Made by a program: the position numbers and the translations under genes. A model generated the notes under the pieces. The model saw nothing but the letters and a program-made list of their open reading frames with translations. It did no database searches and was not told the DNA's origin. Shown piece after piece: positions 22,931-56,513 of a stretch of DNA of 64,000 bases. Each line of letters opens with the position of its first letter. Positions within the stretch are counted from its first letter, which is position 1. The stretch is from Halolamina salifodinae (GTDB taxonomy: Archaea; Halobacteriota; Halobacteria; Halobacteriales; Haloferacaceae), in assembly GCF_017874235.1 (NCBI RefSeq), contig NZ_JAGGLC010000006.1, positions 124,001-188,000 of the forward strand, read 5' to 3'.

Positions 22931-23386
22931 CGGTGAACGGCACCGCGGAGTTCCCATGACCTCTGGGACCGCAGCGTGCCGGACACGAGGTCCGGTCACC
23001 AGAAATCTCCGATTTCTGGTTGGCAGCCGAGAATCTGCGATTCTCGGCGACGTCGCAGGAAGGCGCCGCCTTCCTGCTGGCGAACGGGAGCTTCGCTCCC
23101 GTTAACGGCACAGCGCGGATTCCCCCTCCCCCCGCGGGCGCCGACGTCGGCGCCCGCGAGGTGTCCACCGCGACCGCGGTTGTGGCGGCGCGAAGCCGTC
23201 GCCGCTCCGGCGGCGTCATCAGAAATCGAAAATTTCTGATTGGCAGACGAGAGCTCCGCTCTCGTCGACGACGTAGCGCGAGGGGTGAGCGAGGGTTAAG
23301 CCCGAGCGAACCGGCTGGGGAGGCGTGAGGCTGTTGCGTGGTCAGCGGTGCGGTACAAGTGGCCAACGACCGAGATGCTGTTGCCG
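22931..23386. mobile_element. Hairpin-array element A (456 bp, non-coding)
   Basis: The right end (23350-23386), read in reverse, is CGGCAACAGCATCTCGGTCG then TTGGCCACTTGTACCGC, matching the left end of element B at 27308. The left end begins CGGTGAACGGCACCGCGGAG and resembles element C at 56162. Inside are at least six perfect palindromes with 3-nt loops: ACCAGAAATC-tcc-; GCCGAGAATC-tgc-; CAGGAAGGC-gcc-; AACGGGAGC-ttc-; TCAGAAAT/ATTTCTGA; GAGAGC-tcc-. No ORF of its own, so a MITE-like non-autonomous element is the best description. Confidence 0.65.
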
Positions 23387-23442
23387 TCGCTGCCGTAGTA
23401 ACCGTTGACCCCCGAAAAAGACTCAACTCCGAAAAGCCCGCC

Positions 23443-24057
23443 CTATCGCTCGAAACCAACACTGCCGTCCGCAACCGCTTCGCCCTCGTGATCGCGGCGC
23501 ATCGCGATTTCGAACCACGGACAGAGTCGAAGCTGCCGGTACCACTCGGGCTCTTCGTACAGCAGGTCGTAGTCCGCCCAGAGCAGCCCCTCGATCTCCT
23601 CGGTATCGGGGTCCAGATCCGTGTCGGTCAGCGTGACCTTCAGCACCGCACAGACCTCCCACTCCAGCCCCTCTCGCTCGTAGCGGCGTTTGTACTCGAA
23701 GCGGTCCGTCACGCGGAGGTCGTCGTACTGATCCGGCGTGACGCCCAGTTCCTCCTCCAGTCGCTGCTCGGTGGCGTCGACCTGACTCTGGCCCGCGACG
23801 GGGTGGGAGGCGACAGTCCCGTCCCAGTGCGTGTCCCAGAGGCGCTTGTTGGCGGCGCGCTGGGCCAGCAGAATGCGGCCCTCCTCGTCGAACACGAGCG
23901 CGGTAAAGGCGCGGTGGCGCTGCCCCTCGCCCGTGTGGGCGCCGAGGCGGTTCGCGAGGCCCGTTCGCTCGTCGTCGCCGTCGACGGCGACCACGTCCTG
24001 TGCGGCGTTGGGGTGGGGCTCCGTACCCCCGCCCGTGTTGGCGTTCTCGCTGCTCAT
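23443..24057 (-). CDS. idi: Isopentenyl-diphosphate delta-isomerase, type 1 (Nudix fold)
   Basis: A 204-residue Nudix-fold protein that would interconvert isopentenyl and dimethylallyl diphosphate for archaeal lipids and carotenoids. Visible: FTALVFDEEGRILLAQRA, LWDTHWDGTVASHP, the ATEQRLEEELG Nudix region, and EWEVCAVLKV. At the position of the catalytic Cys in bacterial/eukaryotic type 1 enzymes (xxCGHP) there is Ala83 (ASHP), which I recall in other haloarchaeal members; so activity or mechanism may differ. The ATG at 24057 is favoured over 24075. Confidence 0.82.
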   Translation of the reverse strand: MSSENANTGGGTEPHPNAAQDVVAVDGDDERTGLANRLGAHTGEGQRHRAFTALVFDEEGRILLAQRAANKRLWDTHWDGTVASHPVAGQSQVDATEQRLEEELGVTPDQYDDLRVTDRFEYKRRYEREGLEWEVCAVLKVTLTDTDLDPDTEEIEGLLWADYDLLYEEPEWYRQLRLCPWFEIAMRRDHEGEAVADGSVGFER

Positions 24058-24146
24058 ACGCGACCCATCGGCCACCGGGGGTAAGGTCGCTTCGATGCCG
24101 CGCGCGGCAGTTCGCTGGTGTGCGGGTCAGTTCGCTAGCGTCCCGA

Positions 24147-24833
24147 TCAGGCGTCGACGCCCAGTTCCTCCAGCAGCGTCAGCGCGGCCGCGTGGGAGGA
24201 GCCCGGGCCCCGAGCCGTCAGCAGGTCGCCGTCGACGGTGACGGAGGTGTCCGAATCGAGTTCGGCGTCGAAATTCGCGCCCGCGGCTTTGACCTCGTCC
24301 TCGACCCAGTAGGGGAGCTTTCGGCCGTCGGGCAGCAGGTCGTTCTCGTCGACGATGCCCTCCTCCCACGCGTTCGGGAAGCCAGTCACGTCGCGGCCGT
24401 CGACGAGGAACTCACCTTCGGCGTCGCGCGTGAACGCGAGAATCCCGACGGTGTGGCAGACGACCAGCGCGAGGCCGTCGTCGCCCTCGACAGCCGTTCG
24501 GAGCGCGGCGCGGGCGTGCACGTCCTGCGTGATGTCCCACTCGGCGCCGTGGCCGCCGGGGAACACGACGGCGTCGTACTCCGCCGGCTCAGCCGCGGCC
24601 AGCGGGGTCGGGTTGTTCAGTCGCTCGTCGGTCTCGTGGATCTCGCGGAGTTCCTCGGCCTCCTCCTCGCCGATGTCCTCGGGGTCGAGCGAGCGCTCGT
24701 CGACGACCGGGGGGTTCCCCGTCGGCGTCGCCACGTCGATGTCGACGCCCGCGTCGGTGAGCGTCGTGAGCGGGTCGATGCACTCCTCGGCCCAGTAGCC
24801 GTCCTCGCTGACGATAAATAGCGCGTCGGTCAT
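24147..24833 (-). CDS. DJ-1/PfpI family protein (Hsp31/glyoxalase III-like)
   Basis: A 228-residue class-I glutamine-amidotransferase-fold protein: VVFPGGHGAEWD near the centre, and the nucleophile elbow VVCHTVG with the catalytic Cys, as in Hsp31-type chaperones and deglycases. A role in stress protection or glyoxal detoxification is family-based inference. It stands alone between idi and the Lrp gene. Confidence 0.87.
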   Translation of the reverse strand: MTDALFIVSEDGYWAEECIDPLTTLTDAGVDIDVATPTGNPPVVDERSLDPEDIGEEEAEELREIHETDERLNNPTPLAAAEPAEYDAVVFPGGHGAEWDITQDVHARAALRTAVEGDDGLALVVCHTVGILAFTRDAEGEFLVDGRDVTGFPNAWEEGIVDENDLLPDGRKLPYWVEDEVKAAGANFDAELDSDTSVTVDGDLLTARGPGSSHAAALTLLEELGVDA

Positions 24834-24925
24834 GCATCCACAAGTGGGGGTGTCGGACGGAAAAGCTCACCAGCCGCGGCACGGGGTGGCGCGGCCGTGT
24901 CGCGTTAGGCGCCGAGCCGTTCGTC

Positions 24926-25342
24926 CTACGAGCCCAGCCGTTCGTCCAGAATGAGTCGGGTGGTGCTCTCCTCGACCTCCCCCTGCTCGCGGGCGCGGCT
25001 GATCAGTTCGTTCACCGCGCGGGTGTCGACACAGTCGACGACGAGCACGATGTCGTCCTCGCCGGAGACCTGCCAGACGAAGTCGACCTCCTCCCAGTCC
25101 GCGAGACGCTTGCCAACTTCGTCGGTGTTGACGTCCATCGCGACCGAGATCTCGATCATCGCCTTCACGTTCCCGGTCCGGGTGGTGACGGTGAACCGCT
25201 CGATGACGCCGTCCTCGACCATCCCCTCGACGCGGTTGCGCACGGTCCCCTCGCTCGTTCCGACCTGCTCGGCGATCTCGGTGTAGGGCGTCCGGGCGTC
25301 CCGCCGGAGGATGTTCAGGATCTCCCGATCGAGTTCGTCCAT
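24926..25342 (-). CDS. Lrp/AsnC family transcriptional regulator
   Basis: A 138-residue protein: N-terminal winged helix (ILNILRRDARTPYTEIAEQ and SEGTVRNRVEGMVEDGVI) and C-terminal RAM effector domain (VDFVWQVSGEDDIVLVVDC), which binds amino acids and oligomerises. It is divergent from carA, with a perfect 7-bp inverted repeat between them at 25374-25388. It probably controls carA and itself in response to an amino acid such as glutamine or arginine; this is inferred from position. Confidence 0.93.
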   Translation of the reverse strand: MDELDREILNILRRDARTPYTEIAEQVGTSEGTVRNRVEGMVEDGVIERFTVTTRTGNVKAMIEISVAMDVNTDEVGKRLADWEEVDFVWQVSGEDDIVLVVDCVDTRAVNELISRAREQGEVEESTTRLILDERLGS

Positions 25343-25373
25343 ACACCTCCCTGCCGCTCCCGCGCCATACCGG

Positions 25374-25388
25374 TTACGAATTTCGTAA
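25374..25388. promoter_or_regulatory. Candidate Lrp operator, TTACGAA-t-TTCGTAA
   Basis: A perfect 15-bp palindrome with one central base, 31 bp upstream of the lrp start and 50 bp upstream of carA. A second, spaced pair of half-sites, TTACG (25412) and CGTAA (25434), straddles the carA start region, and GTTATTAC at about 25408 is a plausible carA box A. Lrp proteins bind such short dyads. Confidence 0.6.
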
Positions 25389-25438
25389 GAATCCTTCGAA
25401 CGACACAGTTATTACGTTCGATGAGTACGTTTCTCGTA

Positions 25439-26497
25439 ATGAGCGCGTACATCGCGCTGGCCGACGGTCGTGTCGTGGAGGGACGCTCGCGTGCCCCCGG
25501 CACGGGCCGGGGTGAGCTGGTGTTTACCACCGCCTACACCGGCTACGAGGAGAGTCTGACTGACCCGTCCTACGCCGAACAGGTACTCACGTTCTCCTAC
25601 CCACTGATCGGGAACTACGGGGTCCGGGAGGAGCGCTTCGAGTCCGACCAGATCCAGCCCCGCGTCGCCGTCGCCCGCGAGTTCACCGACGACGTGGCCG
25701 AGTGGCTGGAGAGCGAGGGGATCCCGGCTATCGACGGTCTGGACACCCGCGATCTGGTCACCTCGATCCGCGAGCAGGGGGCGATGCGCTGTGGCGTCGC
25801 CGCCGGCCCGGACGCCACGCCCGAGCAGGCCCGCGAACAGTTGGAGCAGTGTATCGAGATGAGCGACCACACCGAGATCGGCGCGCAGGTCAGCGTCGAC
25901 GAACCCCAGCAGTATCAGGGGAGCGGCGTGAAAGTCACCCTCATCGACTGCGGCGCGAAGCAGTCGATCATCGAGGCCCTGACGGCCCGCGACGCCGCCG
26001 TCACCGTCCTGCCCTACGACGCGACGCCCGCCGAGGTCGCCGACACCGAACCGGACGTGGTGTTCGTCTCGAACGGGCCGGGCGACCCGGCGAACTTCGA
26101 GGCCGCCGGCGAGGTCGTCGAGGAGTTCGTCGGCGAGACCCCCATCGCGGGAATCTGTCTCGGCCAGCAGGTCGTCGCCCGCGCGCTGGGCGGCGAGACC
26201 GAGAAGATGGAGTTCGGCCACCGCGGCCTGAACCAGCCGGTTCGTGACCTCGAAACCGACCGCGTGGTGATGACGACCCAGAACCACGGCTACAGCGTCG
26301 CGGACCCGGGCGACCTCGCGGTCACGCAGGTCAACGTCAACGACGGCACCGCCGAGGGGCTGGAGGGCGTCGACGTCGACGTGCTCACCCGCCAGTACCA
26401 CCCCGAAGCGAACCCCGGTCCCCACGACTCGCTTTCCTTCTTCGACGACGTGATCGAGATGGCCGAGAACCGCGCGCCTGCGGTCGCCTCGGACTAA
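25439..26497 (+). CDS. carA: Carbamoyl-phosphate synthase small (glutaminase) subunit
   Basis: A 352-residue protein that hydrolyses glutamine and passes ammonia to CarB for carbamoyl phosphate, precursor of pyrimidines and arginine. N-terminal CPSase domain (GELVFTTAYTGYEESLTDPS, GNYGV), C-terminal class-I amidotransferase with VSNGPGDP, nucleophile Cys240 in AGICLGQQ, and QYHPEANPGP supplying the catalytic His-Glu. The ATG at 25439 gives the usual short N-terminus; an ATG 18 bp upstream is the alternative. carB is not in the window. Confidence 0.97.
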   Translation: MSAYIALADGRVVEGRSRAPGTGRGELVFTTAYTGYEESLTDPSYAEQVLTFSYPLIGNYGVREERFESDQIQPRVAVAREFTDDVAEWLESEGIPAIDGLDTRDLVTSIREQGAMRCGVAAGPDATPEQAREQLEQCIEMSDHTEIGAQVSVDEPQQYQGSGVKVTLIDCGAKQSIIEALTARDAAVTVLPYDATPAEVADTEPDVVFVSNGPGDPANFEAAGEVVEEFVGETPIAGICLGQQVVARALGGETEKMEFGHRGLNQPVRDLETDRVVMTTQNHGYSVADPGDLAVTQVNVNDGTAEGLEGVDVDVLTRQYHPEANPGPHDSLSFFDDVIEMAENRAPAVASD

Positions 26498-26552
26498 GCG
26501 GCGGCTGAGCCCGGCGCACAACCTTTTTCAGCCTCGTTCGCCTCTGATACGT

Positions 26553-27209
26553 ATGAGCTACGACGCGGTCGTGTTCGATAACGACGGCGTTCTGGTGGAC
26601 ACCACCGACTACGACGTTCTCCACGAAGCCGCGTGGCACGCGTTCGAGGAGGCCGGGATCGAGGACCCGGACCCCGAACACGTGGAGGACGTCGTCGTCG
26701 GCGTGACGCCCGAATCGCTGTCAGCAGTTTGTGACGTGTACGATCTCTCGGTCGACGAGTTCTGGCGAATTCGCGACCGAACGGCCCACGAGGCCCAGCG
26801 CGAACACGTCCACGCCGGCGGGAAGCCGCTGTTCGACGACGTGTCGACGTTGTCGGATCTGGACCTCCCGATGGGTGTCGTGAGTTCGAACCAACAGGAG
26901 ACGGTCGATTTCCTGCTCGATCATTTCGGCGTGTCGGGGCTGTTCGACACGGCCTACGGCCGACAGCCGACGATGGAGGACCTCCGGCGGCGCAAGCCGG
27001 ACCCGCACTTCATCGAGCAGGCGCTGTCGGATCTGGAGGCCGAGGACGCGCTCTACGTCGGCGACCGGGAGAGCGACGTGACGGCGGCGTTCAACGCCGG
27101 CGTCGACTCGGCGTTCATTCGCCGGCCCCACCGGAAACATCACCGGCTCTCGGTCGAGCCGACCCACGTCGTCGACGACCTGCACGACGTGCGCGCGCTC
27201 TGTCGCTGA
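26553..27209 (+). CDS. HAD superfamily phosphatase
   Basis: A 218-residue HAD hydrolase: motif I FDNDGVLVDT (nucleophile Asp, acid/base Asp), motif II VVSSNQQET, motif III with RRRKPDPHF, motif IV YVGDRESDVTAAFNAG. The helical cap of subfamily I lies at ~15-85. Members act on phosphoglycolate, sugar phosphates or nucleotides; the substrate cannot be read here. A single gene, followed by hairpin element B. Confidence 0.92.
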   Translation: MSYDAVVFDNDGVLVDTTDYDVLHEAAWHAFEEAGIEDPDPEHVEDVVVGVTPESLSAVCDVYDLSVDEFWRIRDRTAHEAQREHVHAGGKPLFDDVSTLSDLDLPMGVVSSNQQETVDFLLDHFGVSGLFDTAYGRQPTMEDLRRRKPDPHFIEQALSDLEAEDALYVGDRESDVTAAFNAGVDSAFIRRPHRKHHRLSVEPTHVVDDLHDVRALCR

Positions 27210-27307
27210 TTTTTGGAAGCTGTTCGGTGTGTCTCGGGGTCGATCGCTGAGGGCGTCTCTGCGGCATCCCGATGCAGTATCTCGAAGCGAGCTGGCTGCA
27301 ACAGCGG

Positions 27308-27719
27308 CGGCAACAGCATCTCTATCGTTGGCAACTTGTGACCGCCCCGCGCCGCACCGCGGCCACAGCCTCCCCAGCCGACTCGCTCCCTCCGGCAGAG
27401 CAAGTTCTGCCGTGCTCTCGTTCGCTTCGTCGCCGGCGGCGTCGCCGCCGGCTGTCACCGAAAGCCGCTGGCTTGCGGTTGCCCGAGGAGCTTCGCTCCT
27501 CCCCGCCAGCGGAACCTTCGGTTCCGCCCCGCTCACGAGAACATACAGTCGCTCGTCCTCCGAGGGAGCAAGTAGTTCGAGAGAGCACAGCTCTCTCGTC
27601 ATGTCGCCGAGAATCGGAGATCCTCGTCTGCCAACCAGAAATCTCTGATTTCTGGTGACCGGACCTCGTGCCCGGCACTCTGCGGTCACAATTTGCCAAC
27701 GAACGAAATGCTGTTGCGG
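27308..27719. mobile_element. Hairpin-array element B (412 bp) with 38-bp terminal inverted repeats
   Basis: The left end (27308-27345) and the inverted right end (27682-27719) match at 33 of 38 positions (core GCAACAGCAT...CGTTGGCAA.TTGTGACCGC). Between them are perfect palindromes with 3-nt loops: GCCGGCGGC-gtc-, GAGGAGC-ttc-, GCGGAACC-ttc-, CGAGAGAGC-aca-, ACCAGAAATC-tct-. No protein-like ORF. It is related to elements A (22931-23386) and C (56162-56513) and shares the CACAGCCTCCCCAGCCGACT block with C. The flanks (27210-27307, 27720-27774) hold nothing recognisable. Confidence 0.75.
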
Positions 27720-27774
27720 TCGGAGTTACCAGCCTAACCGCCGAGATACCGCTAAAACCCTGAAAATCCGAAAA

Positions 27775-29235
27775 TCACCGACCGCTACAGTCCACCACCG
27801 CCACGTCACAGTCCACCTCCCGAATCCGCTCGAACGTCGGCGGCGAAATCAGCCGTGACGCCGCCGAGCGCCCGCCCGAGGAGCCGATCATCACCAGATC
27901 GTACGCGCCGGCGTTCTCCGTGATGTACTCAGTAATCTCCGCCCGAGCAACCCGAGTCTCGACGGGCGCGTCGAACGTCTCGACGATGTTGGCGAGGCGG
28001 TGTTCGGCGTCGCGGCGCTCGACCTCGCTGCCGATACAGGTGCAGGCGCTGACGCGGCCGTACTCGCCGGCCAGTCGGGCCGCGAAGTCCATCATCGCGT
28101 GGGCGGAGTCGCCCGGTCGAGCGATGGGGGCGAGCACCCGGCGCCACCGCGTCGGCCCCATCGAGCGGTGCGCGATGGCGTCCACGGGCCCCGAAAGCAC
28201 CCGCCGGACGTACGGGGCGAGCGCGCCGTCCTCGGTCTCGTAGGGCGTCACGATCAGGTCGCAGTTCGCGCGCTCGGCGCTGTCCAGCGCCGTCGTCGCC
28301 GGGTCGCCGCTGGCGACGATGACTTCACAGGGCACTTCGGTCGCCTCGTGGACGCGCTCAGCCACCTCGTTCAGGCGTTCGGCGGTCTCCCGAACGCGCT
28401 CGGCGTCGGCCTCGTCCACCGATTCGGGGTCTGCCTCACCGCGGCGCGCGGCCAGTGCATCGGCGTCGACGCCGTCCAGCACGTCGAGCAGTACGACCTT
28501 GCCGCCGCTGTGGGCGGCCGCGATCCGCCCACCCATCATCGCTGTCTCCTCGGCTGTCTCGCCCCGCATCGGGACGAGCACGTGGTCGTCGCCGTGGGTG
28601 GTCCCGTAGAGGTAGGCCGCGCGCTGCTCGTAGAGGCGCTCGCGCCAGACCAGAAACACCCCCGCGACCAGCGTCGTCGAGAGGAAGACGCTGATCACGT
28701 ACGCCGCCCGGGGGTCGAGCGCGATTCCCGGGAGGACGACGGCGGGGCCGGTCGCCAGGTCGCTCACCAGCACCAGCAGCGCCGCGGAGAACGCCGACGC
28801 CTCCTCCACGTCGAACAGCCACGTTGCGGCCGCGGTCAGGGCGACGGCACCCGCCGCCGCGCCGGGGTGGACGATACCCCCTGTCGCCGCCGGGAGCAGG
28901 TGGCTCGCCGCTTCGAAGGAGAGCCAACCACAGAGCGCGCCCAGCGTGATGCCGCCGACGAACCGCCCCGGCGAGGCGTAGCGGCTCTCCGGGTTGGCAA
29001 ACAGCATGTACGTCCCGGAGGCCAGCGGCGGGAACAGCAGGTACGGCAGCGCGGAGACGGCGTTCGACAGCGTCGTCACCACCGCGATCAGCAGCGGGAC
29101 GAACAGCAGTACCGAGAGATGGAGGAGGTTGTCGGTGGTCTCGACCCAGCGGCGAAGGTCGCGTAGCTCCCGGCGCTCGATGGCGCGGGCCCGCCGGCAG
29201 GCCGCAAACAGTGCCTCGCGAAGCCGTGCTCGCAT
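27775..29235 (-). CDS. HPP-family membrane protein fused to two UspA domains
   Basis: A 486-residue protein. Residues ~40-205 hold five or six membrane helices of the HPP type (YLLFPPLASGTYMLFANPES); residues ~215-350 and ~355-486 are two universal-stress domains, the second with the nucleotide-binding-like end VMIGSSGGRSAASRL. HPP proteins include nitrite transporters, so this may be a nucleotide-responsive channel or transporter; that is inference. The gene stop is 4 bp upstream of the next minus-strand gene region's end-to-start spacing (nucleoside phosphorylase at 29241), suggesting an operon. Confidence 0.82.
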   Translation of the reverse strand: MRARLREALFAACRRARAIERRELRDLRRWVETTDNLLHLSVLLFVPLLIAVVTTLSNAVSALPYLLFPPLASGTYMLFANPESRYASPGRFVGGITLGALCGWLSFEAASHLLPAATGGIVHPGAAAGAVALTAAATWLFDVEEASAFSAALLVLVSDLATGPAVVLPGIALDPRAAYVISVFLSTTLVAGVFLVWRERLYEQRAAYLYGTTHGDDHVLVPMRGETAEETAMMGGRIAAAHSGGKVVLLDVLDGVDADALAARRGEADPESVDEADAERVRETAERLNEVAERVHEATEVPCEVIVASGDPATTALDSAERANCDLIVTPYETEDGALAPYVRRVLSGPVDAIAHRSMGPTRWRRVLAPIARPGDSAHAMMDFAARLAGEYGRVSACTCIGSEVERRDAEHRLANIVETFDAPVETRVARAEITEYITENAGAYDLVMIGSSGGRSAASRLISPPTFERIREVDCDVAVVDCSGR

Positions 29236-29240
29236 CCCGC

Positions 29241-30014
29241 TCAGAGCGCGGCGACGGCGTCCAGCGCGATGCCGATGGCGCGCTCGACATTGTTCTTGGC
29301 TTTCTCGGGCAGTTCACCCTCCTCGGTCTCGCCCTTCTGGGTCCCCTTCACGAGGTTGCCGTCGACGGTACAGATGGCGCCCGCCCGCATTCCGCGGCGG
29401 CGCGCCAGCGAGAAGACGGCGGCGGCCTCCATCTCGATACAGAGCAGGCCCGCTTTCTCCCAGTCGGCGACGAACTCGTCGCTCTCGTTGTAGAACGCGT
29501 CGTCGGAGACGATGGGGCCGACGTGGACGGCCGCCCCGGAGGGGCCGCTTGCGGTCGTGTCGGGCTCGTCCGACACGACCCCCTCGCTGGCCTCGGCGGC
29601 GTCGACGAGGTTCGAGAGCACGTCGTAGTCCGGGACGGCCGGGTAGGTCGCGGACTCGTAGCGCTTGCTGGTCCCCTCCTCCTTGGCGGCGCCGGTGGCG
29701 ACGACCATGTCGCCGATCTCGATCTCCGCCTGCAGCGCGCCCGTGGTGCCGACGCGCAGCACCGTCTCGACGCCGACGTTGTGGAGTTCCTCGATGGCGA
29801 TAGCCGCCGAGGGGCAGCCGATCCCCGTCGAGCAGATGGTCAGCTCGGTTCCCTCGTACTCGGCGTTGACGACCTTGTACTCGCGGTTCTCGGACACTTC
29901 CTCGACGTTCTCACACTGCGCGGCGATGCGGTCGACGCGGCCCGGGTCGCCCGGGATCAGCGCGATCTCGTTTACGTCACCCTCGCCGACGAGTAGGTGC
30001 GGCTGTTTGGCCAT
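29241..30014 (-). CDS. Nucleoside phosphorylase (uridine phosphorylase type)
   Basis: A 257-residue PNP/UDP-family protein. Motifs: IALIPGDPGRVDRIAAQ, ICSTGIGCPSAAIAIEEL, VLRVGTTGAL (phosphate site) and LLCIEMEAAAVFSLA (ribose/base site). It splits nucleosides with phosphate to the base and (deoxy)ribose-1-phosphate for salvage. The ATG at 30014 was chosen; an upstream ATG adds a low-complexity leader. deoC, which uses a downstream product of deoxynucleoside breakdown, lies 1.4 kb away. Confidence 0.93.
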   Translation of the reverse strand: MAKQPHLLVGEGDVNEIALIPGDPGRVDRIAAQCENVEEVSENREYKVVNAEYEGTELTICSTGIGCPSAAIAIEELHNVGVETVLRVGTTGALQAEIEIGDMVVATGAAKEEGTSKRYESATYPAVPDYDVLSNLVDAAEASEGVVSDEPDTTASGPSGAAVHVGPIVSDDAFYNESDEFVADWEKAGLLCIEMEAAAVFSLARRRGMRAGAICTVDGNLVKGTQKGETEEGELPEKAKNNVERAIGIALDAVAAL

Positions 30015-30103
30015 ACTCGCGGATGCCGCCGGCGAGGGCAAAAGCGCCGCGATCCGGGGGGACCGTCACAGCTTTCTTGCCGGCGCCGTGTGAGTCGTTC
30101 ACT

Positions 30104-30493: not shown

Positions 30494-30497
30494 TTTT

Positions 30498-31307: not shown

Positions 31308-31444
31308 GGTCCCGGAGGGACCGGCAGCGCGGAAAGGTTTACGGAGCGAGTGGCCCCGGGCGGTTGCTGCTGGCGGGGCCGCGGTCAACGTCGACGACGA
31401 CGCGTAGCGGCGGTGTTTTCACCCAGGCGGGCCCAGTGGCGGCT

Positions 31445-32083: not shown

Positions 32084-32091
32084 CCCGACTC

Positions 32092-47205: not shown

Positions 47206-47310
47206 ACTCGAACGGAGGAACTACCCGGGGGAGAACTCGGCGGTAGTGACACGCGGCAGCGGCGCTGTTCGGTTGGGGTGTGCGAAAAAGTGGAAGACGG
47301 CGCTGTCGGC

Positions 47311-48573: not shown

Positions 48574-48689
48574 GGGTTTGGCGTACGCTGACGACTCGCC
48601 ATGGAGGGCGGAGGGCAGCGAACAGGCGGCCGTTCGCTCGGTGACGTGAAATAGCTTCTGGGGATTGATGTGGGCGAGAAAAACGCCCG

Positions 48690-50438
48690 CTAGAGTCGTC
48701 GCCGGATGCGTTCGGCCGTCGTGGCGCCGATGCCGTCGACGTCCCGCAGGTCGTCCTCGCCGGCCTCGCGGACGGCGTCGACGGAGCCGAACCGCCGCAG
48801 CAGGCGCTTTCTGGTCTCCGGGCCGACCCCATCCACCTCGTCGAGCGCCGTTCCCACGTCGTCGCGGACGCTCTGGTGGTACTGGACGGCGAAGCGATGG
48901 GCCTCGTCGCGCACGCGCTGGAGCAGGTGAAGGTGGGGCGCGTCGTCGTCGAACCGCTCGACGTTGTCGGGAGTGATCACTAGCTCCTCGGCTTTCGCCA
49001 GCGCGATGCAGGGCACCTGCCAGCCGGTCTCGTCCAGCGCGTCCATCGCCGCGCCCAACTGCCCTTCGCCGCCGTCGATGAGCAGGAGATCCGGATCCGG
49101 GCGGTCGTCGCGCCCCTCGACGGCGCGCTCGGCCCGCCAGCGCACCAGTTCGCGCATGTTGGCGTAGTCGTCGTTCCGGTCGGTGAGCTTCTTGCGGCGG
49201 TAGCCGGACTTCTCGGCGCTGCCGCCGGCGAAGCAGACGTCGCTGCCGACGACGGCCTTCCCCTGTGCGTGGCTCACGTCGAACCCCTCGATGCGCTCGG
49301 GTCGGGGGATGTCGAGCGCCTGTCCCAGCGCGCCCACGGGGTCGTCGGCGCCGCCGACGCCGCTGCGGGCGTTCTTGAGCGCCAGTTCGACCAGCTTCCC
49401 CTCCCGGCCCGCGCCGGGCACCGACACGTCGACGCCGGCGGAATCGAGCCAGTCGAGCACGTCCTCGTCGTCCGGGCGCTCGGAGAGCAGAATCGCGTCC
49501 GGTAGCTCTCGCTCGGCGTAGTACTGCGTGAGGAAGGCCGAGAGGAGTGTGGCGACGCGGTCCTCGCCCTCCGGCGCATCGAGCCGGTGGCGGGAGCGGT
49601 CGACGAGCTGGCCGGAATCGGCGTGCAGACGCGCAACGGTCGCGTTCTCGCCCTCGACGACGGCCGCGAGCACGTCCACCTCGCGCCGACTGCTGGGCGA
49701 GGAAACGGCCTCACCGCCGCCGCCGTGGAACGCCTCGACGGCTTCCAGTCGGTCGCGGGCGTTGGCCGCGCGCTCGAACTCCTCCGCTTGGGCGGCCTGC
49801 TCCATCTCCCGGCCCAGCGGGTCGGCGAGCACGCCCGTCTCGCCCTCGAAAAAGCGGATCGCGCTCTGGACGTCCTCGGCGTAGCGCTCGGCGTCGATGG
49901 CGTCGACGCAGGGCGCCGAGCAGAGCCCCATCTCGTGGTCGAGGCAGGGCCGCTCGCGGTTCTGGAACTTGTGGTCCGAACAGCCACGCAGGCCGTACGT
50001 CTCCCGGATGGCCTTCACGACCGTCTCGACCTCGCCTTTCCGGGTGTAGGGGCCGAAAACCGTGGCCGCGTCGTCGGGGTCGCGGGTGATCTCGATACGG
50101 GGGTACTGGTGGTCCGTTAGCTGGACCAGCGGGTAGGATTTGTCGTCCTTCAGCCGGACGTTGTAGCGGGGCTGATGGCGCTTGATCAGGTTCGCCTCCA
50201 GCAGGAGGGCTTGCGTCTCGGTGTCGGTGACGGCGGTGTCGATGGCGTCGGCGCGGGCCACCATCCGCCGGATGCGGTCGCTGCGGGGATCGGCGTAGGA
50301 GCGCACGCGGTCACGGATGTCGACGGCTTTGCCGACGTAGAGCACCGTGTCGACGTCGTCGCCGCGTTCGAGGAAGCGGTAGACCCCCGGCTCCCGGGGG
50401 AGGTCGCGCGCGCGCTCTCGAACCTCGCTCGCGTCCAT
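48690..50438 (-). CDS. uvrC: Excinuclease ABC subunit C
   Basis: A 582-residue nucleotide-excision-repair endonuclease, making 3' and 5' incisions with UvrA/UvrB. The N-terminal GIY-YIG domain ([11 protein letters not shown]...[14 protein letters not shown]), a Cys-rich LCSAPC region, UVR motif, the RNase-H-like domain ([28 protein letters not shown]), and two C-terminal HhH motifs ([36 protein letters not shown]). Haloarchaea carry bacterial-type UvrABC. Confidence 0.96.
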
Positions 50439-50526
50439 CTATCCGGGGTAGGGGGTGGGCGCGTTTCAGCGTGACGCCCCATGATCGTGGAGCGCGTTTA
50501 GTCAGTGGGTTAGAACCACCGTGAAA

Positions 50527-50781
50527 GCCCCTTCCGATCCCACCCGACAGCATTCGCCGGGTACGAGGCCCGGCGCGGCATCCGGTCCCCGCTCCTCCCC
50601 GTCGCCGCCGGCGCTCGCTCGTTGCACTCGCTCGCGCGTTGGCGGCGACGCTACCACCGCATCCGGCGCGAAGCGCTCGCACCGCCATGCGCGAGCAAGC
50701 GCGAGGGATGAGCGAGTGAGCAGAGCGAACGAGCGAATCGGCTGGGGAGGATGAGGTTGCGGTGGGCGGGACTGAAAGGGG
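50527..50781. mobile_element. GC-rich element with short inverted termini (255 bp, non-coding)
   Basis: Left end GCCCCTTCCGATCCCACCC and inverted right end GCCCCTTTCAGTCCCGCCC match at 15 of 19 positions. Contains CCGGG/CCCGG and a CGCTCG-rich centre, and the block AATCGGCTGGGGAGGATGAG, which is related to the GGCTGGGGAGG block of elements A-C. No gene. Transposon-like origin is inferred. Confidence 0.45.
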
Positions 50782-50783
50782 CT

Positions 50784-50886
50784 ACTCGCTCGACGAACCC
50801 GGCCGACGTAAGCACTGCAGCGACCGAAGGGAGCGAAGCGCGCAGCGAGGCCCGGGAGTCGAGCGGGTAGGGGCTTTCTCGGTGTT
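50784..50886 (+). repeat. AAGCAC...GGGGCTTTC repeat, copy 3
   Basis: GCTCGACGAACCCGGCC, GTAAGCAC, GCGACCGAAGGGAGCGAAG, CGCGCAGCGAG, CGAGCGGG and AGGGGCTTTCTCGGTG follow in the same order as at 16970-17063. The 3' part is found in reverse at 20797. Non-coding; the remainder of the spacer to 51000 has nothing recognisable. Confidence 0.7.
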
Positions 50887-51000
50887 TACGACCAATCCAG
50901 TAACCCCTAGAACCCAAACTGACGTGGCAGTCGTCGATACAGCAACCGAGACCCATACCCGACCGTCGGCTACAAACCGACCCCGATCCAACCCCGAACC

Positions 51001-51258
51001 ATGCCCCGCGTCTGGCTCGTCGAACGCGATGTCGACAGCCGCAACCTCGTGACGATGACCTACGCCACCCCGGACGGCGAGCGCGCGTTCACCCGGCAGG
51101 CGGCGCTGGATAGCCTCGCACGCCGAGACGGTCCCACCGCCGCCGTCGATGTCGAGGAGGACCGACTCGAAACCGTCGGCGACCCCGAGACCGCCGCGCG
51201 ATACGCCGAGGAGGCCGAACGCGTCGCCGAGCGCCACGACCCCGAAGACAGTCTGTAG
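51001..51258 (+). CDS. Small conserved-looking haloarchaeal protein
   Basis: An 85-residue acidic soluble protein (MPRVWLVERDVDSRNLVTMT, then GERAFTRQAALDSLA, and an acidic C-terminus). Base composition of the third codon positions is high in G/C, which supports coding. No family or motif recognised. It stands 59 bp ahead of the ABC exporter genes. Confidence 0.6.
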   Translation: MPRVWLVERDVDSRNLVTMTYATPDGERAFTRQAALDSLARRDGPTAAVDVEEDRLETVGDPETAARYAEEAERVAERHDPEDSL

Positions 51259-51317
51259 GAATTCTGACCCCCTCGCGGAGCCGAAACCCTTTATCGGGAA
51301 CCGAAGCAACCCCGCCC

Positions 51318-52265
51318 ATGGCCGCTATCGAACTCGACGGGGTGACCAAGCGGTTCGGCGACGTGACCGCCGTCGACGGACTGGACCTGACGGTGGCTGA
51401 GGGCGAGGTGTTCGGCTTCCTCGGCCCCAACGGCGCCGGGAAGTCGACGACTATCAACGTCCTGCTGGACTTCGTCCGCCCGACCGAGGGGTCGGTGCGG
51501 GTGCTCGGGATGGACCCACAGCGCGAGAGCGTCGCCGTCCGGGAGCGCACCGGCGTGCTCCCGGAGGGGTTCTCCGTCTACGACCGGCTGACGGGCCACG
51601 AACACCTCGAGTTTGCCATCGAGTCCAAGGACGCCGACGCCGACCCGGACGCACTGCTGGAACGTGTCGGCCTCGCGGGCGACGGCGACCGCAAGGCCGG
51701 CGGCTACTCCAAGGGGATGGCCCAACGGCTCGCACTCGGGATGGCGCTCGTGGGCGATCCGGACCTGCTGATCCTCGACGAACCCTCCTCCGGCCTCGAC
51801 CCCGCCGGCGCGAAGGAGATGCGCGAAATCGTGCGCGAGGAGGCCGACCGCGGCGCGACGGTGTTCTTCTCCAGCCACGTGCTGGGACAGGTCGAAGCGG
51901 TCTGTGACAGCGTCGGCATCCTCCGAGAGGGGAAACTGGTCGCGCGCGACTCCATCAGGGGGCTGCGTGAGGCGGTCGGCACCGGCGCGACCCTCGAAAT
52001 CACCGCCGAGGGCGTCACCGACGACCAACTCGACGCCGTGCGCGACCTCGACGGCGTCGACGCCGCGACGACCGACGGGACCGTGGTGACGGTACAGTGC
52101 GATCCCGAGGCCAAGACCGCCGTCATCGGCACCTTGGAGGACGCGGGCGTCGTCGTCGACGACTTCGCCACTCGCGAGTCGTCGCTGGAGGACCTGTTCC
52201 TCGCCTACACGGAGGGTGACGCGCCGGGTGCTAGTGAGGCCGCGGACTCGGAGGTGGAGGCATGA
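51318..52265 (+). CDS. ABC-2 type exporter, ATP-binding subunit
   Basis: A 315-residue ATPase: Walker A GPNGAGKSTT, signature YSKGMAQRLALG, Walker B LLILDEPSSGLDP, H-loop SSHVLGQVEA, then a ~90-residue C-terminal domain (ITAEGVTDDQLDAV). CcmA/NatA-type. Drives the downstream permease, whose start overlaps its stop (ATGA). Substrate unknown. Confidence 0.94.
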   Translation: MAAIELDGVTKRFGDVTAVDGLDLTVAEGEVFGFLGPNGAGKSTTINVLLDFVRPTEGSVRVLGMDPQRESVAVRERTGVLPEGFSVYDRLTGHEHLEFAIESKDADADPDALLERVGLAGDGDRKAGGYSKGMAQRLALGMALVGDPDLLILDEPSSGLDPAGAKEMREIVREEADRGATVFFSSHVLGQVEAVCDSVGILREGKLVARDSIRGLREAVGTGATLEITAEGVTDDQLDAVRDLDGVDAATTDGTVVTVQCDPEAKTAVIGTLEDAGVVVDDFATRESSLEDLFLAYTEGDAPGASEAADSEVEA

Positions 52266-53152
52266 GCTGGGAGGCCGTCGCCCGGAAGGACTTCCGCGAC
52301 GCGGTGCGCTCGCGCTGGCTCTGGGTGCTGTCGGCGCTCTCGGTGCTCGTGTTCGCCGGCGCCGCCGTCGGCCGGCTGTACGTGGGCAACGGCGCCCAGA
52401 ACACCCAGGGGCTCGTGCAGGGGTTCCTCTTCTTCCTGAAACAGGGGACCGCGATCCTGATCCCGCTGACCGCGCTGGTGGTCGCCTACGGCGCCATCAC
52501 CCGCGAGCGGGAGTCGGGAACGATCAAACTCCTGCTCTCGCTGCCCCACTCCCGGGACGACGTGGTGCTCGGGAAGTTCCTCGGCCGCAGCGCCGTGGTG
52601 ACGCTGCCGGTACTGATCGGCTTCTTCGTCGCCTTCCTCGCGCTACTGCCCGCTGGCTCGGGCGTGGACATCCTCGTCTACGTCGAGTTCGCGCTGCTGA
52701 CCGCGCTGCTGGGCGTGGTGTTCGTCGGCATCGCCGTCGGCGTCTCCGCGGCCGCGAACACGAATCAGCAGGCGCTCGTGGGCGCCGGCGGGCTGTTCAG
52801 CATCTTCTGGTTCCTCTGGAACTTCTTCGTCAGCGGCGTCAACCGCGCGGCGACGGAGCTGTTCGGGCTCTCGAACCCCGCCCAGTTCCGGCTTCGGCTG
52901 GCGCTGAAGATCCTCAACCCGATTCAGGCGTACAAGACGCTGGTCGACAGCCTGTTCATGAGCGGCCTCGAAGCCCGCGTCCGGATGTTCAGCATGCTAC
53001 TCGGGATGATCCCGAACCAGCAGGCCGCGCAGGCGCTGGGCCCGGAGCTCTCGCCGCTGTTCGCCGATTCGATGGTGCTGCTGGCGATGCTGGTCTGGCT
53101 GGTCGTCCCGCTGGCGGTCGGGATCGTCTGGTTCCGCGAGGCGGAACTGTAG
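52262..53152 (+). CDS. ABC-2 type exporter, permease subunit
   Basis: A 296-residue membrane protein with six hydrophobic segments, starting with WEAVARKDFRDAVRSRW, the amphipathic N-terminus typical of NosY/ABC-2 permeases, and the ITRERESGTIKLLLSLPHSR loop. Overlaps the ATPase gene by 4 bp. Exports an unknown substrate. Confidence 0.92.
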   Translation: MSWEAVARKDFRDAVRSRWLWVLSALSVLVFAGAAVGRLYVGNGAQNTQGLVQGFLFFLKQGTAILIPLTALVVAYGAITRERESGTIKLLLSLPHSRDDVVLGKFLGRSAVVTLPVLIGFFVAFLALLPAGSGVDILVYVEFALLTALLGVVFVGIAVGVSAAANTNQQALVGAGGLFSIFWFLWNFFVSGVNRAATELFGLSNPAQFRLRLALKILNPIQAYKTLVDSLFMSGLEARVRMFSMLLGMIPNQQAAQALGPELSPLFADSMVLLAMLVWLVVPLAVGIVWFREAEL

Positions 53153-53210
53153 ACGCTCGACCCACAGAAACTATATCAGCCGTTCGACCGATCCGCGACG
53201 TACGCCCTCC

Positions 53211-53954
53211 ATGTCGGACGATGACGAGCGAGTGACCGTCGCGGGGTACGACCGACTCGCCGACGCCACGGACCTTGACCAGTGGGAGAGTCCGTGGGGC
53301 GACAGCCACTATCAGCGCCACTACGTCTGGCCCGCCGCTGCGTCGATGCTGCCGGAAGTAGACGGCTTGGACGTACTCGACGCCGGTTGTGGCGTCGGCT
53401 CTTACACCGAGTGGTTCCACGACAACGGCGCCGCCGTCGTCGCCGTCGACGCGAGCGAGGACGCACTCGCGAGCGCCCGTGAGCGATGTCCCGAGGACGT
53501 AACGTTCTACCAGCAGAATCTGACCGAACCGTTCGAGTTCGCCGATAGCGATAGCTTCGACCTCGTGTTCAGCAACCTCGTGCTGGACCACATCGAAGAT
53601 TGGTGCCCGGTCTTCGAAACGTTCGCCCGCGTGCTGCGTCCGGGCGGAACGGTGGTGTTCACCACAATTCACCCGTTTCGGCGCTACCTGAACCACCGCG
53701 ATGACCTGGCTAACTACTACGAGACCGAGGGGTACGTGGTCGAGTGGGGAAGCACGGACGTGGAGATCGAGTCGTACTACCGACCGATCGGGGAAGTGGT
53801 CAACGCCGTCGCAGACGCCGGATTCCGGATCGACGAGTTCCGCGAGGCTAGACCGCAGGAGAGTTACGAGGACCACCAGCCCGAGCGCTACGAGAGCGCG
53901 ATGGCGAAACCGGATACGCTGTGTGTCCGGGTCGAGTTGCCCGGGAACCGCTAG
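53211..53954 (+). CDS. Class I SAM-dependent methyltransferase
   Basis: A 247-residue protein with motif I VLDAGCGVGSYTEWF, motif II FDLVFSNLVLDHI, and VLRPGGTVVFTTIHPF. Small-molecule methyltransferase (UbiE/type 11 group). Substrate unknown. Convergent with gnd; the gap is 3 bp. Confidence 0.9.
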   Translation: MSDDDERVTVAGYDRLADATDLDQWESPWGDSHYQRHYVWPAAASMLPEVDGLDVLDAGCGVGSYTEWFHDNGAAVVAVDASEDALASARERCPEDVTFYQQNLTEPFEFADSDSFDLVFSNLVLDHIEDWCPVFETFARVLRPGGTVVFTTIHPFRRYLNHRDDLANYYETEGYVVEWGSTDVEIESYYRPIGEVVNAVADAGFRIDEFREARPQESYEDHQPERYESAMAKPDTLCVRVELPGNR

Positions 53955-53957
53955 CGA

Positions 53958-54857
53958 CTACTGCCGGGAGACCTCGTGCCGGCCGAACCCGTATCGCAGG
54001 CGGTTGGCGAGCCGTCGGGCGAATCGCCCCTCCTCGGGGGCGCGCGAGCCGAACCGCTCGGCGAGCGCCTGGTAGATGAGTGGGACGGGCACCTCCTGTT
54101 CCAGCGCCTCCTGTACCGTCCACGTGCCCGTCGAGCCACCGGCGACGTGGTCGGCGACATCGCCCAGATCGTTGCCCTCCTCGCGGAACGCCTCCTCGCA
54201 GAGTTCGAGCAGCCACGAACGAATCACGGCGCCGTTGTTCCACGTCCGGGCGACAGACTCCAGATCGAGGTCGTAGCGACCGTTCGCGAGCAGTTCGAAC
54301 CCTTCCCCGTAGGTCTGCATCAGCGCGTACTCCACGCCGTTGTGGACCATCTTCACGTAGTGGCCCGAGCCGGCGGGACCCATCCGGTCGTGCCCGGCGT
54401 TCCCGGTGGCGACGGCGTCGAAGACCGGGACCATCGCCTCGTAGGCCCACTCGGGGCCGCCGACCATCAGCGAGAAGCCGAGATGTGCGCCCGCGGGGCC
54501 GCCGGAGGTGCCACAGTCGAGGTAGGCGGCCTCCGTCTCCGCGGCCCGGCGCACGGACTTCTCGAAGTGGGAGTTGCCGCCGTCGACGACTACGTCGTCC
54601 GCGTCGAGGTGGGGTTCGAGGTCGTCCAGGGTGGCGTCGACGGGGTCGCCCGCCGGCACCATCAGCCAGATGCGTTTCTCCTCGCCGAGTCGGTCACAGA
54701 GATCCGCGACGCTGTCGGCGGGCGTCGCGCCCGCCTCGGCGGCCTCGGCGGTGGCCTCCGCGCTGAGGTCGAACGCGACCACGTCGTGGCCCGCGTCGAT
54801 AGTTCGGTCGACGACGATCTGTCCCATCCGACCGAGTCCGATGACGCCGAGTTCCAT
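53958..54857 (-). CDS. gnd: 6-phosphogluconate dehydrogenase (decarboxylating), short form
   Basis: A 299-residue protein, the short NAD-type 6PGDH found in haloarchaea and some bacteria rather than the ~470-residue NADP form. Visible: IGLGRMGQIV (nucleotide), VVDGGNSHF, GTSGGPAGAH, and KMVHNGVEYALMQ with the catalytic Lys and Asn. Converts 6-phosphogluconate to ribulose-5-phosphate and CO2; in haloarchaea it is the pentose-supplying oxidative step. Confidence 0.93.
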   Translation of the reverse strand: MELGVIGLGRMGQIVVDRTIDAGHDVVAFDLSAEATAEAAEAGATPADSVADLCDRLGEEKRIWLMVPAGDPVDATLDDLEPHLDADDVVVDGGNSHFEKSVRRAAETEAAYLDCGTSGGPAGAHLGFSLMVGGPEWAYEAMVPVFDAVATGNAGHDRMGPAGSGHYVKMVHNGVEYALMQTYGEGFELLANGRYDLDLESVARTWNNGAVIRSWLLELCEEAFREEGNDLGDVADHVAGGSTGTWTVQEALEQEVPVPLIYQALAERFGSRAPEEGRFARRLANRLRYGFGRHEVSRQ

Positions 54858-54999
54858 ACTCGGAACTGTGAGGGTAGCGTGGTAGCCGTTGCGGTCCCGT
54901 GCGGGCGTCGATGTCGCTGGCGTGCCGTGCGGTAGTAGGGACGCCCTGGGCCGGGGCAGTCCCGCGGGTATTTTGCCGCCGAGGGGCGACCGCCCGGGC

Positions 55000-56103
55000 A
55001 TGGACGAACGCATCCGTGAACACGCGAGGACGCTGGTCGACTGGAGTGCCCGGATCGAGGCGGGCGACAACGTGGTGCTGTCGGTCGCCGAGGGCGCCCA
55101 CGACCTCGCCGTCGCCGTCGCCGAGGAACTGGGGAAGCGCGACGCGAACGTGGTGACGCTGTACAACTCCGACGAAGTGAGCCGCGCACACACCCGCGCC
55201 CACAGCGACGAGTTCGACGAGGACCCCGAGTACGAGCGCGCGCTGTACGCGAACGCCGACTCGGTGCTGAGCCTCGGCGGCGGCCACAACACCACCGCCA
55301 GCGCCGACGTGCCCGCCGAGAAGCGCCAGGCGAAGGGCCGCGCCCGGCAGGGGATCCGCGAGGCACGGATGGACACCGACTGGGTGTCGACGGTCCACCC
55401 GACGCGCTCGCTGGCCCAGCAGGCCGGCATGAGCCACGAGGCGTATCAGGCGTTCGTCTACGACGCCATCCTGCGGGACTGGGAGGAACTGGCCGACAAG
55501 ATGGCGATGATGAAGGACCTGCTCGACGAGGGCAGCGAGGTCCGCATCGTCAAGGAAGACACCGACCTCACGATCTCCATCGAGGGCCGGACGGCGGTCA
55601 ACTCCGCCGCCAGCGTGGCCTACGACTCCCACAACCTCCCCTCCGGCGAGGTGTTCACCGCGCCCCACGCGACGGAGGGCGAGGTGTTCTTCGACGTGCC
55701 GATGACGATCAACAGCCAGCGCGTGCGGAACATCCACCTCACGTTCGAGGATGGCGAGGTCGTCGACTTCGCTGCCGAGCAGAACGAGGACGTCATCGCG
55801 GAGGTACTGGACACCGACGAGGGGGCCAAACGGCTGGGCGAACTCGGCATCGGGATGAACCGCGGCATCGACCAGTTCACCGACAGCATCCTGTTCGACG
55901 AGAAGATGGGCGATACGGTGCATCTGGCGCTCGGGCGGGCCTACGAGTCGAACTTCCCCGAGGGCAGCGAGGACGAGGCCAACGACTCGGCGGTCCACGT
56001 CGACATGATCACCGACATGAGCGAGGACTCGCGGATGGAGGTGGATGGGGAGGTGGTCCAGCGTAACGGGACGTTCCGGTGGGAGGACGGGTTCGAGGAG
56101 TAG
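55000..56103 (+). CDS. Aminopeptidase T-type metallopeptidase (M29)
   Basis: A 367-residue protein of the M29 family (thermophilic aminopeptidase). The conserved N-terminal domain (HARTLVDWSARIEAGDNVVL) is followed by EGRTAVNSA, FTAPHATEGEVFF and the metal-ligand region with ELGIGMNRGI, DEKMGDTVHLALGRAY and DSAVHVDMITDM. Cleaves N-terminal residues with dinuclear metal. The ATG at 55000 is supported by length. Followed by hairpin element C. Confidence 0.92.
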   Translation: MDERIREHARTLVDWSARIEAGDNVVLSVAEGAHDLAVAVAEELGKRDANVVTLYNSDEVSRAHTRAHSDEFDEDPEYERALYANADSVLSLGGGHNTTASADVPAEKRQAKGRARQGIREARMDTDWVSTVHPTRSLAQQAGMSHEAYQAFVYDAILRDWEELADKMAMMKDLLDEGSEVRIVKEDTDLTISIEGRTAVNSAASVAYDSHNLPSGEVFTAPHATEGEVFFDVPMTINSQRVRNIHLTFEDGEVVDFAAEQNEDVIAEVLDTDEGAKRLGELGIGMNRGIDQFTDSILFDEKMGDTVHLALGRAYESNFPEGSEDEANDSAVHVDMITDMSEDSRMEVDGEVVQRNGTFRWEDGFEE

Positions 56104-56161
56104 GTAGATCGGGTCGGAGGCGTCGATATTCTCGGTATCGGTTTTTGCTCTAGGACTGCAT

Positions 56162-56513
56162 CGGCGAACAGCACCGCGGAGTTCCCTTGGACACTTGTAA
56201 CGGCACCGCTCAGCACAGCCCACAGCCTCCCCAGCCGACTCGCTCGGGCTTAACCCTCGCTCGTCCCTCGCGCGCTCGTTCGCGCCGACGCGTTGTGCGG
56301 GCGACCCGTGCGTCGCCCGCACGGCCAGCGAGAGCTTCGCTCTCGCCCTGCTCACGTCACGCGCCACCACCGCGCGGTGCGGGTGCGGTGGACGCCTCGC
56401 GTCGGCGAATCGTCGCCGACGCCGGGGGAGGGGTGGGGACCCGGCGCTGCGCCGGACCTCGGGTCCGGCGCCCGGCTGTTTCTCAGGTGTCAACGATAGA
56501 GCTGCTGTTGCTG
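56162..56513. mobile_element. Hairpin-array element C (352 bp, non-coding)
   Basis: The left end CGGCGAACAGCACCGCGGAG resembles element A's left end; the right end, read in reverse, is CAGCAACAGCAGCTCTATCG then TTGACACC, like element B's left end. Internal palindromes: GTGCGGGCGAC/GTCGCCCGCAC, GCGAGAGC-ttc-GCTCTCGC, GCGTCGGCGA/TCGCCGACGC, CCGGCG-ctg-CGCCGG, GCCGGACC-tcg-GGTCCGGC. Shares CACAGCCTCCCCAGCCGACT with element B. No ORF. The rest of the spacer to 56638 has no recognisable feature. Confidence 0.65.

Follow-up and report, generated by a model that had tools for sequence, protein, structure and literature searches.

Three hairpin-rich elements, A, B and C, lie in a 64,000-nt stretch of Halolamina salifodinae DNA (contig NZ_JAGGLC010000006.1, positions 124,001 to 188,000; hereafter the window), and they raise the question of what kind of sequence they are and how they came to be dispersed. 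An earlier note, made from the sequence alone, read them as miniature inverted-repeat transposable elements (MITEs) moved by an unknown transposase or, alternatively, as a conserved structured RNA locus. All three are present where that note placed them, and a covariance model found a fourth copy, D (R1 core at 50661-50757), which it did not list. The four are probably copies of an old, non-autonomous, multicopy structured repeat of Halobacteria that is homogenised within genomes. The part of the repeat that carries this interpretation is a core of ~95 nt, here called R1.

Architecture of the elements

The features of the four copies, with the basis of each assignment, are as follows.

22931..23386, + strand: element A, whole, with its R1 core on the + strand
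22935..22955, + strand: left end of A, type T2 (GAACGGCACCGCGGAGTTCCC), by end motif
22998..23103, + strand: four perfect hairpins of A (22998-23020, 23026-23048, 23055-23077, 23083-23103), by hairpin test, read as modules like repetitive extragenic palindromic (REP) sequences
23133..23158, strand undefined: palindrome of A occupying the P2 position of the core, by core alignment and hairpin test
23183..23330, + strand: R1 match of A, 69 bits, by covariance model
23218-23240 and 23246-23266, + strand: two hairpins within the R1 match of A, by hairpin test, read as an inserted REP-like module
23359..23386, + strand: right end of A, type T1, by end motif
27308..27719, - strand: element B, whole, T1 at both ends, interior mostly hairpin modules
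27310..27338, - strand: left end of B, T1, by inverted arms and end motif
27362..27450, - strand: weak R1 match of B, 29.8 bits, by covariance model
27432..27656, - strand: five perfect hairpins of B (27432-27452, 27485-27501, 27509-27527, 27578-27598, 27634-27656), by hairpin test
27690..27718, + strand: right end of B, T1, by inverted arms and end motif
50535..50885, + strand: copy D, with limits set by eye and R1 in a wrapper of another type (GCCCCTTCCGATCCCACC ... GCGGGACTGAAAGGGGC)
50661..50757, + strand: R1 match of D, 80.7 bits, by covariance model
56162..56513, - strand: element C, whole, with its R1 core on the - strand
56166..56186, + strand: left end of C, type T2, by end motif
56219..56290, - strand: R1 match of C, 70.4 bits, by covariance model
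56306..56471, - strand: four perfect hairpins of C (56306-56324, 56328-56346, 56399-56422, 56449-56471), by hairpin test
56486..56513, + strand: right end of C, type T1, by end motif

As described earlier, A and C have GAACNGCACCGCGGAGTTCCC in common at their left ends, and on the right each resembles the two ends of B. The inverted ends of B were confirmed, but the arms extend over 55 nt at 78%, the 38-bp arms first reported being their inner part only. Terminal inverted repeats, which are expected of a MITE, are thus found in B and, by motif and in mixed types, in other copies. Perfect hairpins (stem of at least 7, loop of at most 5) number 7, 5 and 4 in A, B and C, compared to means of 0.24, 0.21 and 0.49 and maxima of 3, 2 and 3 in 100 dinucleotide shuffles. 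The claim of five or more perfect palindromes in each element therefore holds for A and B, while C is one short under this definition. D has none by the same test.

Read with GGGGAGG on the right, the layout consists of an outer end, GACCGC, palindrome P1, GAGTCCCCACCCCTCCCCCCGC, palindrome P2, GAGGCGTCCACCGC, the R1 core, TGCGGTC and a second outer end. In this genus, R1 is part of a ~220-nt core that has additional palindromes and is flanked by degenerate inverted ends. There are two main end types, T1 (..GCCAACGANNGAGATGCTGTTGC) and T2 (GAACNGCACCGCGGAGTTCCC), which are combined in mixed pairs: the 38 copies in this genome with both ends recognised comprise 19 T1-T2, 4 T1-T1, 4 T2-T1 and 11 other pairs. 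Some copies have iterated ends, as in locus L175 of genome G003, where the right end consists of seven exact 39-bp T1 units in tandem. These units were also assessed as a possible coding repeat (DSNRDSISFVGNW in L175), a reading set aside on visual inspection alone. The right end of L164 repeats short T2-type units (..ACACCGAACTCCGCGGTCAGG..). Other R1 matches in the H. salifodinae genome (L238, L255, L256 and L257) have surroundings that resemble the wrapper of D (GCCCCTTCCGATCCCACC ... GGGACTGAAAGGGGC).

Copy number and gene context

The H. salifodinae genome comprises 2.75 Mb in nine contigs, with the window in contig C6. Searched against this genome, B gave at least 102 matches, A at least 100 and C at least 69, the queries themselves included; the likeness of A, B and C is consequently not due to chance. 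Merging the matches by hand gave 58 places, five of which hold hairpin modules only, leaving at least 53 element places, A, B and C among them, with match clusters of up to 740 bp. Six R1 matches in the genome, including D, fall outside these 53 places. The proposal of a dispersed repeat family is thus borne out by many further copies, both here and in other Halobacteria. Density is uneven, with a single element in the 490 kb of contig C2 where 9.5 would be expected (Poisson p 0.0008). The listed matches in genome G003 also look sparse, by eye, near 1.04-1.94 Mb. Contigs C1 and C3 of the H. salifodinae assembly start inside elements (C1:1, C3:1), and assembly breaks therefore fall on these repeats.

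Gene context was taken from a codon-score gene-calling script made for this analysis, by which the elements are intergenic. Both flanking genes were called at 56 of the 58 places (23 convergent, 29 co-directional and 4 divergent). Without the module-only places, the counts are 21, 27 and 3 (n=51), compared to 15, 36 and 14 for the gaps of the window (n=65), so that convergent gaps are commoner (p 0.044) and divergent gaps rarer (p 0.019) at elements. Where the neighbouring genes are co-directional, R1 points in the same direction in 10 cases and in the opposite direction in 17, a bias that is not significant (p 0.25).

Conserved structure of the R1 core

The R1 core has the form GGYGGCGCG-hairpin-GCGCGAGGGAYGA-NN-GA-hairpin-GA-N'N'-GARTCGGYTGGGGAGG. 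The 43 shortest of 66 cores with recognised inner borders (12 from H. salifodinae, 15 from G003 and 16 from G005) were aligned as compact cores. This alignment contains 46 invariant columns, unpaired motifs included, and RNAalifold assigns it 37 pairs, 18 of which show at least one double change. A second alignment of 30 sequences, made up of 18 of the 43 cores and 12 of 13 stretches found in public genomes with a strict pattern, was used both to draw an 11-pair structure and to score it. In this alignment 99.4% of cells are paired, and 53 cells carry double changes, compared to 12.1 in shuffled alignments (0 of 500 shuffles as high). Sliding the partners abolishes the pairing. Pair types are no more numerous than in shuffles, 457 of 500 of which reach the observed number. 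Among 80 model matches (77 distinct, from 74 chosen loci, a set that leans to the model), 98.1% of cells are paired and 115 carry double changes, compared to 27.9 in shuffles, and pair types once more do not exceed those of shuffles (355 of 500).

The structure is distinguished by two tandem-GA steps. The four GA positions read GA in 79, 78, 80 and 79 of the 80 matches, and the two base pairs separating the steps vary with compensation. Wobble pairs are asymmetric, with 27 G-U cells and 6 A-C or C-A cells (p 0.0003, related sequences counted); removal of one pair that holds nine G-U leaves 18 versus 6 (p 0.02). A tandem G.A would read T.C on the opposite strand. Because the tandem G.A steps and the G-U excess both point to it, the GGGGAGG strand is probably the folding strand. 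Judged from these alignments, R1 is conserved as a structure, probably with the strand polarity of the GGGGAGG strand. The palindromes P1 and P2 contain 1 and 0 G-U and 6 and 0 A-C in 378 and 214 ungapped cells, respectively, and since G-U is nearly absent from them they appear to be palindromes whose perfection is maintained at the level of DNA. A conserved structured RNA locus, as also suggested, is a less likely reading with some support: conservation of the R1 structure is strand-biased, but the direction of R1 relative to co-directional neighbours shows no significant preference.

Occurrence in other Halobacteria

With the covariance model (E 1e-4, stricter filters), R1 was matched in 76 of 145 Halobacteria genomes and 32 of 58 genera, the model having been built partly from lineages in which it was then searched. 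The listed matches per genome range from 0 to at least 29, the latter in several genomes. The strict pattern returned 13 stretches from public genomes, found in Natrinema (3), Halopiger (2), Natronococcus, Haloterrigena, Salinarchaeum and Halolamina pelagica (1 each), metagenome-assembled genomes (MAGs) of Halobacteriales (3) and one MAG titled Bacteroidetes, a record that may reflect a binning error. A full-length core is present at the H. pelagica locus. Inverted pairs of R1, separated by 85-226 bp, are seen in several genomes of another family (L246, L247, L248, L249, L250, L243 and L230). Unlike the copies in H. salifodinae, the three inspected pairs of that family lie between divergent genes by the codon-score calls. 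In several of the loci read, the inverted pairs enclose words like TTGCCACGATAGCAG, which resemble the T1 end.

Matches to known families and replicons were few. No Rfam family reached its gathering cut-off in window positions 22000-57500, and three sub-threshold matches lie near B, the best with an E value of 0.12. The compact copy L098, the only query used for both collections, gave a single match at 17% coverage in a plasmid collection (in a 987-kb record of Natrinema thermotolerans) and none in a phage collection. No description of R1 or of these elements was recognised in the literature by topic or by motif letters, most subscription papers lying outside this scope.

Shared sites without site memory

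A comparison with genomes G003 and G005 indicates that the family is of some age. Half of the fetched copies in each (20 of 40 and 10 of 20, respectively) occupy the same site as a copy in H. salifodinae, with both flanks matching, and orientation is kept in 25 of these 30 pairs (p 0.0003; the species are not independent). Chance re-insertion at shared sites is unlikely, because orientation is kept and the orientation of copies in H. salifodinae does not clearly follow gene direction. Many copies thus look old and vertically inherited. Their sequences do not show it. Orthologous cores have a mean identity of 0.840 (over the 19 of 30 pairs in which both core motifs are present), compared to 0.841 and 0.832 for random core pairs between H. 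salifodinae and G003 or G005, and within-genome means of 0.846, 0.865 and 0.850. Ranked by core identity, the orthologue comes 3rd to 35th. Copies therefore keep their site and orientation between species, yet their sequences carry no measurable site memory. Gene conversion, which has been described for the polyploid Haloferax volcanii (PMC8223754, in the portion available), would explain this absence, as would saturation under structural constraint.

Individual sites have a more varied history. At site A, G001 has a short copy and G005 one in the opposite orientation; no element is present in G002 and G004, whose spacers at this site are different and hairpin-rich, or in G006, where the genes nearly touch. 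G003 shows an inversion in the interval between A and B, the breakpoints of which are marked by a copy or a bare end-palindrome. The genes flanking B are non-adjacent, with no element beside them, in G001, G002, G004 and G006 (fragmented assemblies in the case of G004 and G006). Rearrangement through copies would be a simple reading of these differences in the A-B region.

Persistence at shared sites and in a fixed orientation could also mean that the element is useful to the host, as a structured RNA, a 3'-end or terminator signal or a chromosome-organising site, and is held in place by selection. The invariant columns of the core, the double tandem-GA helix kept across genera, and the excess of convergent and shortage of divergent gaps are all consistent with such a role. 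However, site A is empty in three of the genomes compared, the listed matches vary widely from genome to genome, the core direction is not significantly tied to neighbouring genes, the inspected copies of the other family lie between divergent genes instead, and no Rfam family matches. A purely RNA account is weakened further by the near absence of wobble pairs from P1 and P2. We regard a host function as a somewhat doubtful explanation of the family.

Hairpin modules as a probable separate layer

Many of the hairpins in A and B are read as parts of a two-hairpin module with GACG/CGTC at its outer borders and the linker TGCCAA, which is added to elements and also occurs alone. Each hairpin carries CGTC (GACG) at its outer end and the modules are inverted dimers; the alignment at RlmE reads GACG-TCG-hairpin-TGCCAA-hairpin-TGACG, and alternating arrays are seen by eye. 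One lone module, also overlooked previously, follows a stop codon at 1192 in the window.

1202..1257, + strand: lone two-hairpin REP-like module, within another palindromic repeat just past the stop codon

That separate palindromic repeat (CCAGTCACGGC..GCCGTGACTG-like) lies in window positions 1193-1450. A comparable arrangement of palindromic repeat and module follows an MCM gene in L094, where the MCM helicase reading frame (L094:64-1503) also matches an intein-splicing domain model.

Among 24 module sites examined outside whole elements, drawn from 40 scored candidates per query, 11 lie in frame inside open reading frames, as judged by a positive codon score on both sides of the module (weakest for L207). 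All 11 are read in one module frame, giving peptides like VDESRRLSSANQNAPRSGDV; L075 holds a variant unit. Ten of the proteins have Pfam matches (FtsJ, which is RlmE, Pyr_redox_2, DUF58, UDG, GNAT, Proton_antipo_M, FAA hydrolase, DHDPS, DUF5807 and shikimate dehydrogenase), and the L207 protein has none. In the two genes tested of the 11, RlmE and AroE, the insertion is absent or shorter in congeners. The RlmE site is empty in five of six congeners, holds one 51-bp unit in G006 and holds two in H. salifodinae, each followed by GACG or GATG. In AroE, the 17 module residues are missing from all six congeners, and the flanks read GGCGT and GACGT. Both insertions, two cases only, would fit a 3-4-bp duplication. 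Compared to structure 2yxg, the residues around the module in DapA are extra (a gap of 19 positions), while the alignment of AroE with 1nvt is less clear around the module. A second copy of the RlmE module, 94% like it and ~840 bp away, lies at L204:1090-1211 and has no clear coding frame.

Search for insertion traces and a mobiliser

Movement of whole elements by a transposase, as first proposed, is not shown, and the family is not a demonstrated MITE. No target-site duplication stood out in the 38 H. salifodinae copies with both ends recognised, at any offset (0-25) or length (3-6, 8 and 9), although such a signal may have decayed in old insertions. Nor was a clean empty site seen for any whole element. 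No transposase with T1 or T2 ends was seen among the copies read, the genome having been searched by match only. A Halopiger record has inverted R1 matches separated by 3.9 kb; by Pfam, the four genes that they enclose are ordinary ones. With regard to a partner of the RAYT or IS200 kind, the genome has one Y1_Tnp match, in a 3.3-kb IS200/IS605-like locus without a module by pattern and with one short TCTCGTC hairpin close to its left border; no other transposase family was included in the search. In L222, near 140-190, a hairpin to the left of the IS200/IS605-like genes is preceded by CAAGTGGTTCGAGA, a 14-mer also present in elements L052, L062, L064 and L092.

A classical MITE, in which deletion derivatives of a transposon with terminal inverted repeats are moved in trans by its transposase, would account for the degenerate inverted ends, the intergenic positions by gene calls, the size of the match clusters and the 53 places. 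It would not account for the mixed end types or for the fact that the most widespread part, R1, is interior, and neither a target duplication nor a transposase has come to light in the copies read. This explanation is improbable.

Flanks of ~1 kb, the nearest 100 bp excluded, gave only six matches between different copies, namely one neighbouring-locus overlap, one gene pair at 68%, one pair at 65% over 590 bp and three of 54-136 bp, and a single segmental duplication is excluded because flanks of different copies are almost all unrelated. Old segmental duplication or chance palindromes alone have a negligible claim: weak palindromes are common, the genome being GC-rich, but the hairpins here are far above shuffles, the copy flanks differ almost throughout and the matches extend to 32 genera.

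Relationship to known repeats

As far as the available portions of the sources allow, the elements can be likened to several known systems. The whole elements come nearest, by description, to the small mobile repeats SMR-A/B (HqIRS40-43 and 55) of Haloquadratum walsbyi. SMRs are transposase-free, lack target duplications and have inverted ends unlike those of known transposons, and their mobilisation has been called enigmatic (PMC3119063). They are commonly >95% alike within a type and differ between strains, and SMR-A is often found inside IS605-type or PATE elements (PMC3119063). The elements described here are likewise dispersed in a haloarchaeal genome, with inverted ends and without a target duplication or, in the copies read, a transposase, but their copies have diverged from one another, often occupy sites common to more than one species and contain a conserved structured core around which they are built. 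PATEs of Haloquadratum have near-terminal palindromes, lack inverted ends and are related to the IS605 type (PMC3119063). Near-terminal palindromes and the absence of target duplication and, in the copies read, of a transposase are shared with them; the inverted ends of our elements are a difference, as is the lack of a module in the one IS200/IS605-like locus read.

The hairpin modules resemble CGTC-tagged REPs, including Rickettsia RPE-4 and RPE-6 and Neisseria dRS3, which apparently have no dedicated transposase (PMC3733652). These repeats are reported from five phyla, only bacteria being named in the part of PMC3733652 available, and are characterized there by an 8-9-bp stem, a 4-5-nt loop, A-T in the first two stem positions and a CCA tail. 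The modules share the CGTC/GACG tag, the inverted dimers and locations that include the inside of genes, and no transposase gene flanked by a module was seen, the Y1_Tnp locus being the one checked. They differ, by eye, in their 3-nt loops, a second pair that is usually C-G and the tail TTGGC(A). Protein-coding palindromes are known from Rickettsia, Wolbachia and Methanocaldococcus jannaschii (as cited in the part of PMC2996958 available), and because of the M. jannaschii cases they are not new to archaea as such. The in-frame modules are similar, by description, in being palindromic insertions at varied places in housekeeping genes, absent from or shorter in orthologues of both genes tested; a difference is that a similar unit here also builds intergenic mosaics.

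Proposed mechanism and significance

The ends of REPs, PATEs and IS200/IS605 elements are thought to be recognised as folded single strands of fixed polarity. R1 could be folded and recognised in the same manner, as a single strand with the polarity of the GGGGAGG strand, although the step from a structured repeat to movement as a folded single strand is an inference. Insertions of whole elements would be rare. Ectopic gene conversion and recombination would hold the existing copies alike within a genome, and would in addition exchange ends and modules, invert copies and create chromosomal breakpoints. The hairpin modules would represent a second, REP-like layer inserting on its own.

Several observations weigh against an old, homogenised mobile repeat. 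No recent transposition is visible, as the closest long pairs within one genome are only 91-93% identical, and movement of whole elements is only inferred, as no empty site with clean ends was found. Saturation under structural constraint could equally erase site memory, and the within-genome excess of identity is small. The G-U asymmetry is based on sequences that are related to one another, and helix P1 shows the reverse, in small numbers (1 G-U, 6 A-C). The conserved unpaired motifs of the core would suit a host function. Lastly, 69 of the 145 sampled genomes have no R1 match, under filters that lose weak matches. Even so, copies of an old structured repeat held alike within genomes remain the probable identity of A, B, C and D.

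More tentatively, it is possible that R1 represents a new class of structured element in Halobacteria, with a strand-specific fold and two back-to-back tandem G.A steps, bound by a putative host or element protein. It would then serve as a portable platform wrapped in lineage-specific ends, and as a landing site for a separate archaeal REP-like system that adds in-frame peptides to housekeeping proteins.

If the interpretation is correct, a folded repeat without an Rfam match is present in about half of the halophilic archaea sampled, in tens of copies in some genomes, and haloarchaea would have a counterpart of the bacterial systems of REPs, bacterial interspersed mosaic elements (BIMEs) and Rickettsia palindromic elements (RPEs). 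What moves the CGTC-type palindromes, and how dispersed repeats that stay at fixed sites are kept alike within a cell, would become testable questions, as would the possibility that archaea in general gain new peptide segments from palindromic insertions in frame. The elements would also mark likely chromosomal breakpoints.

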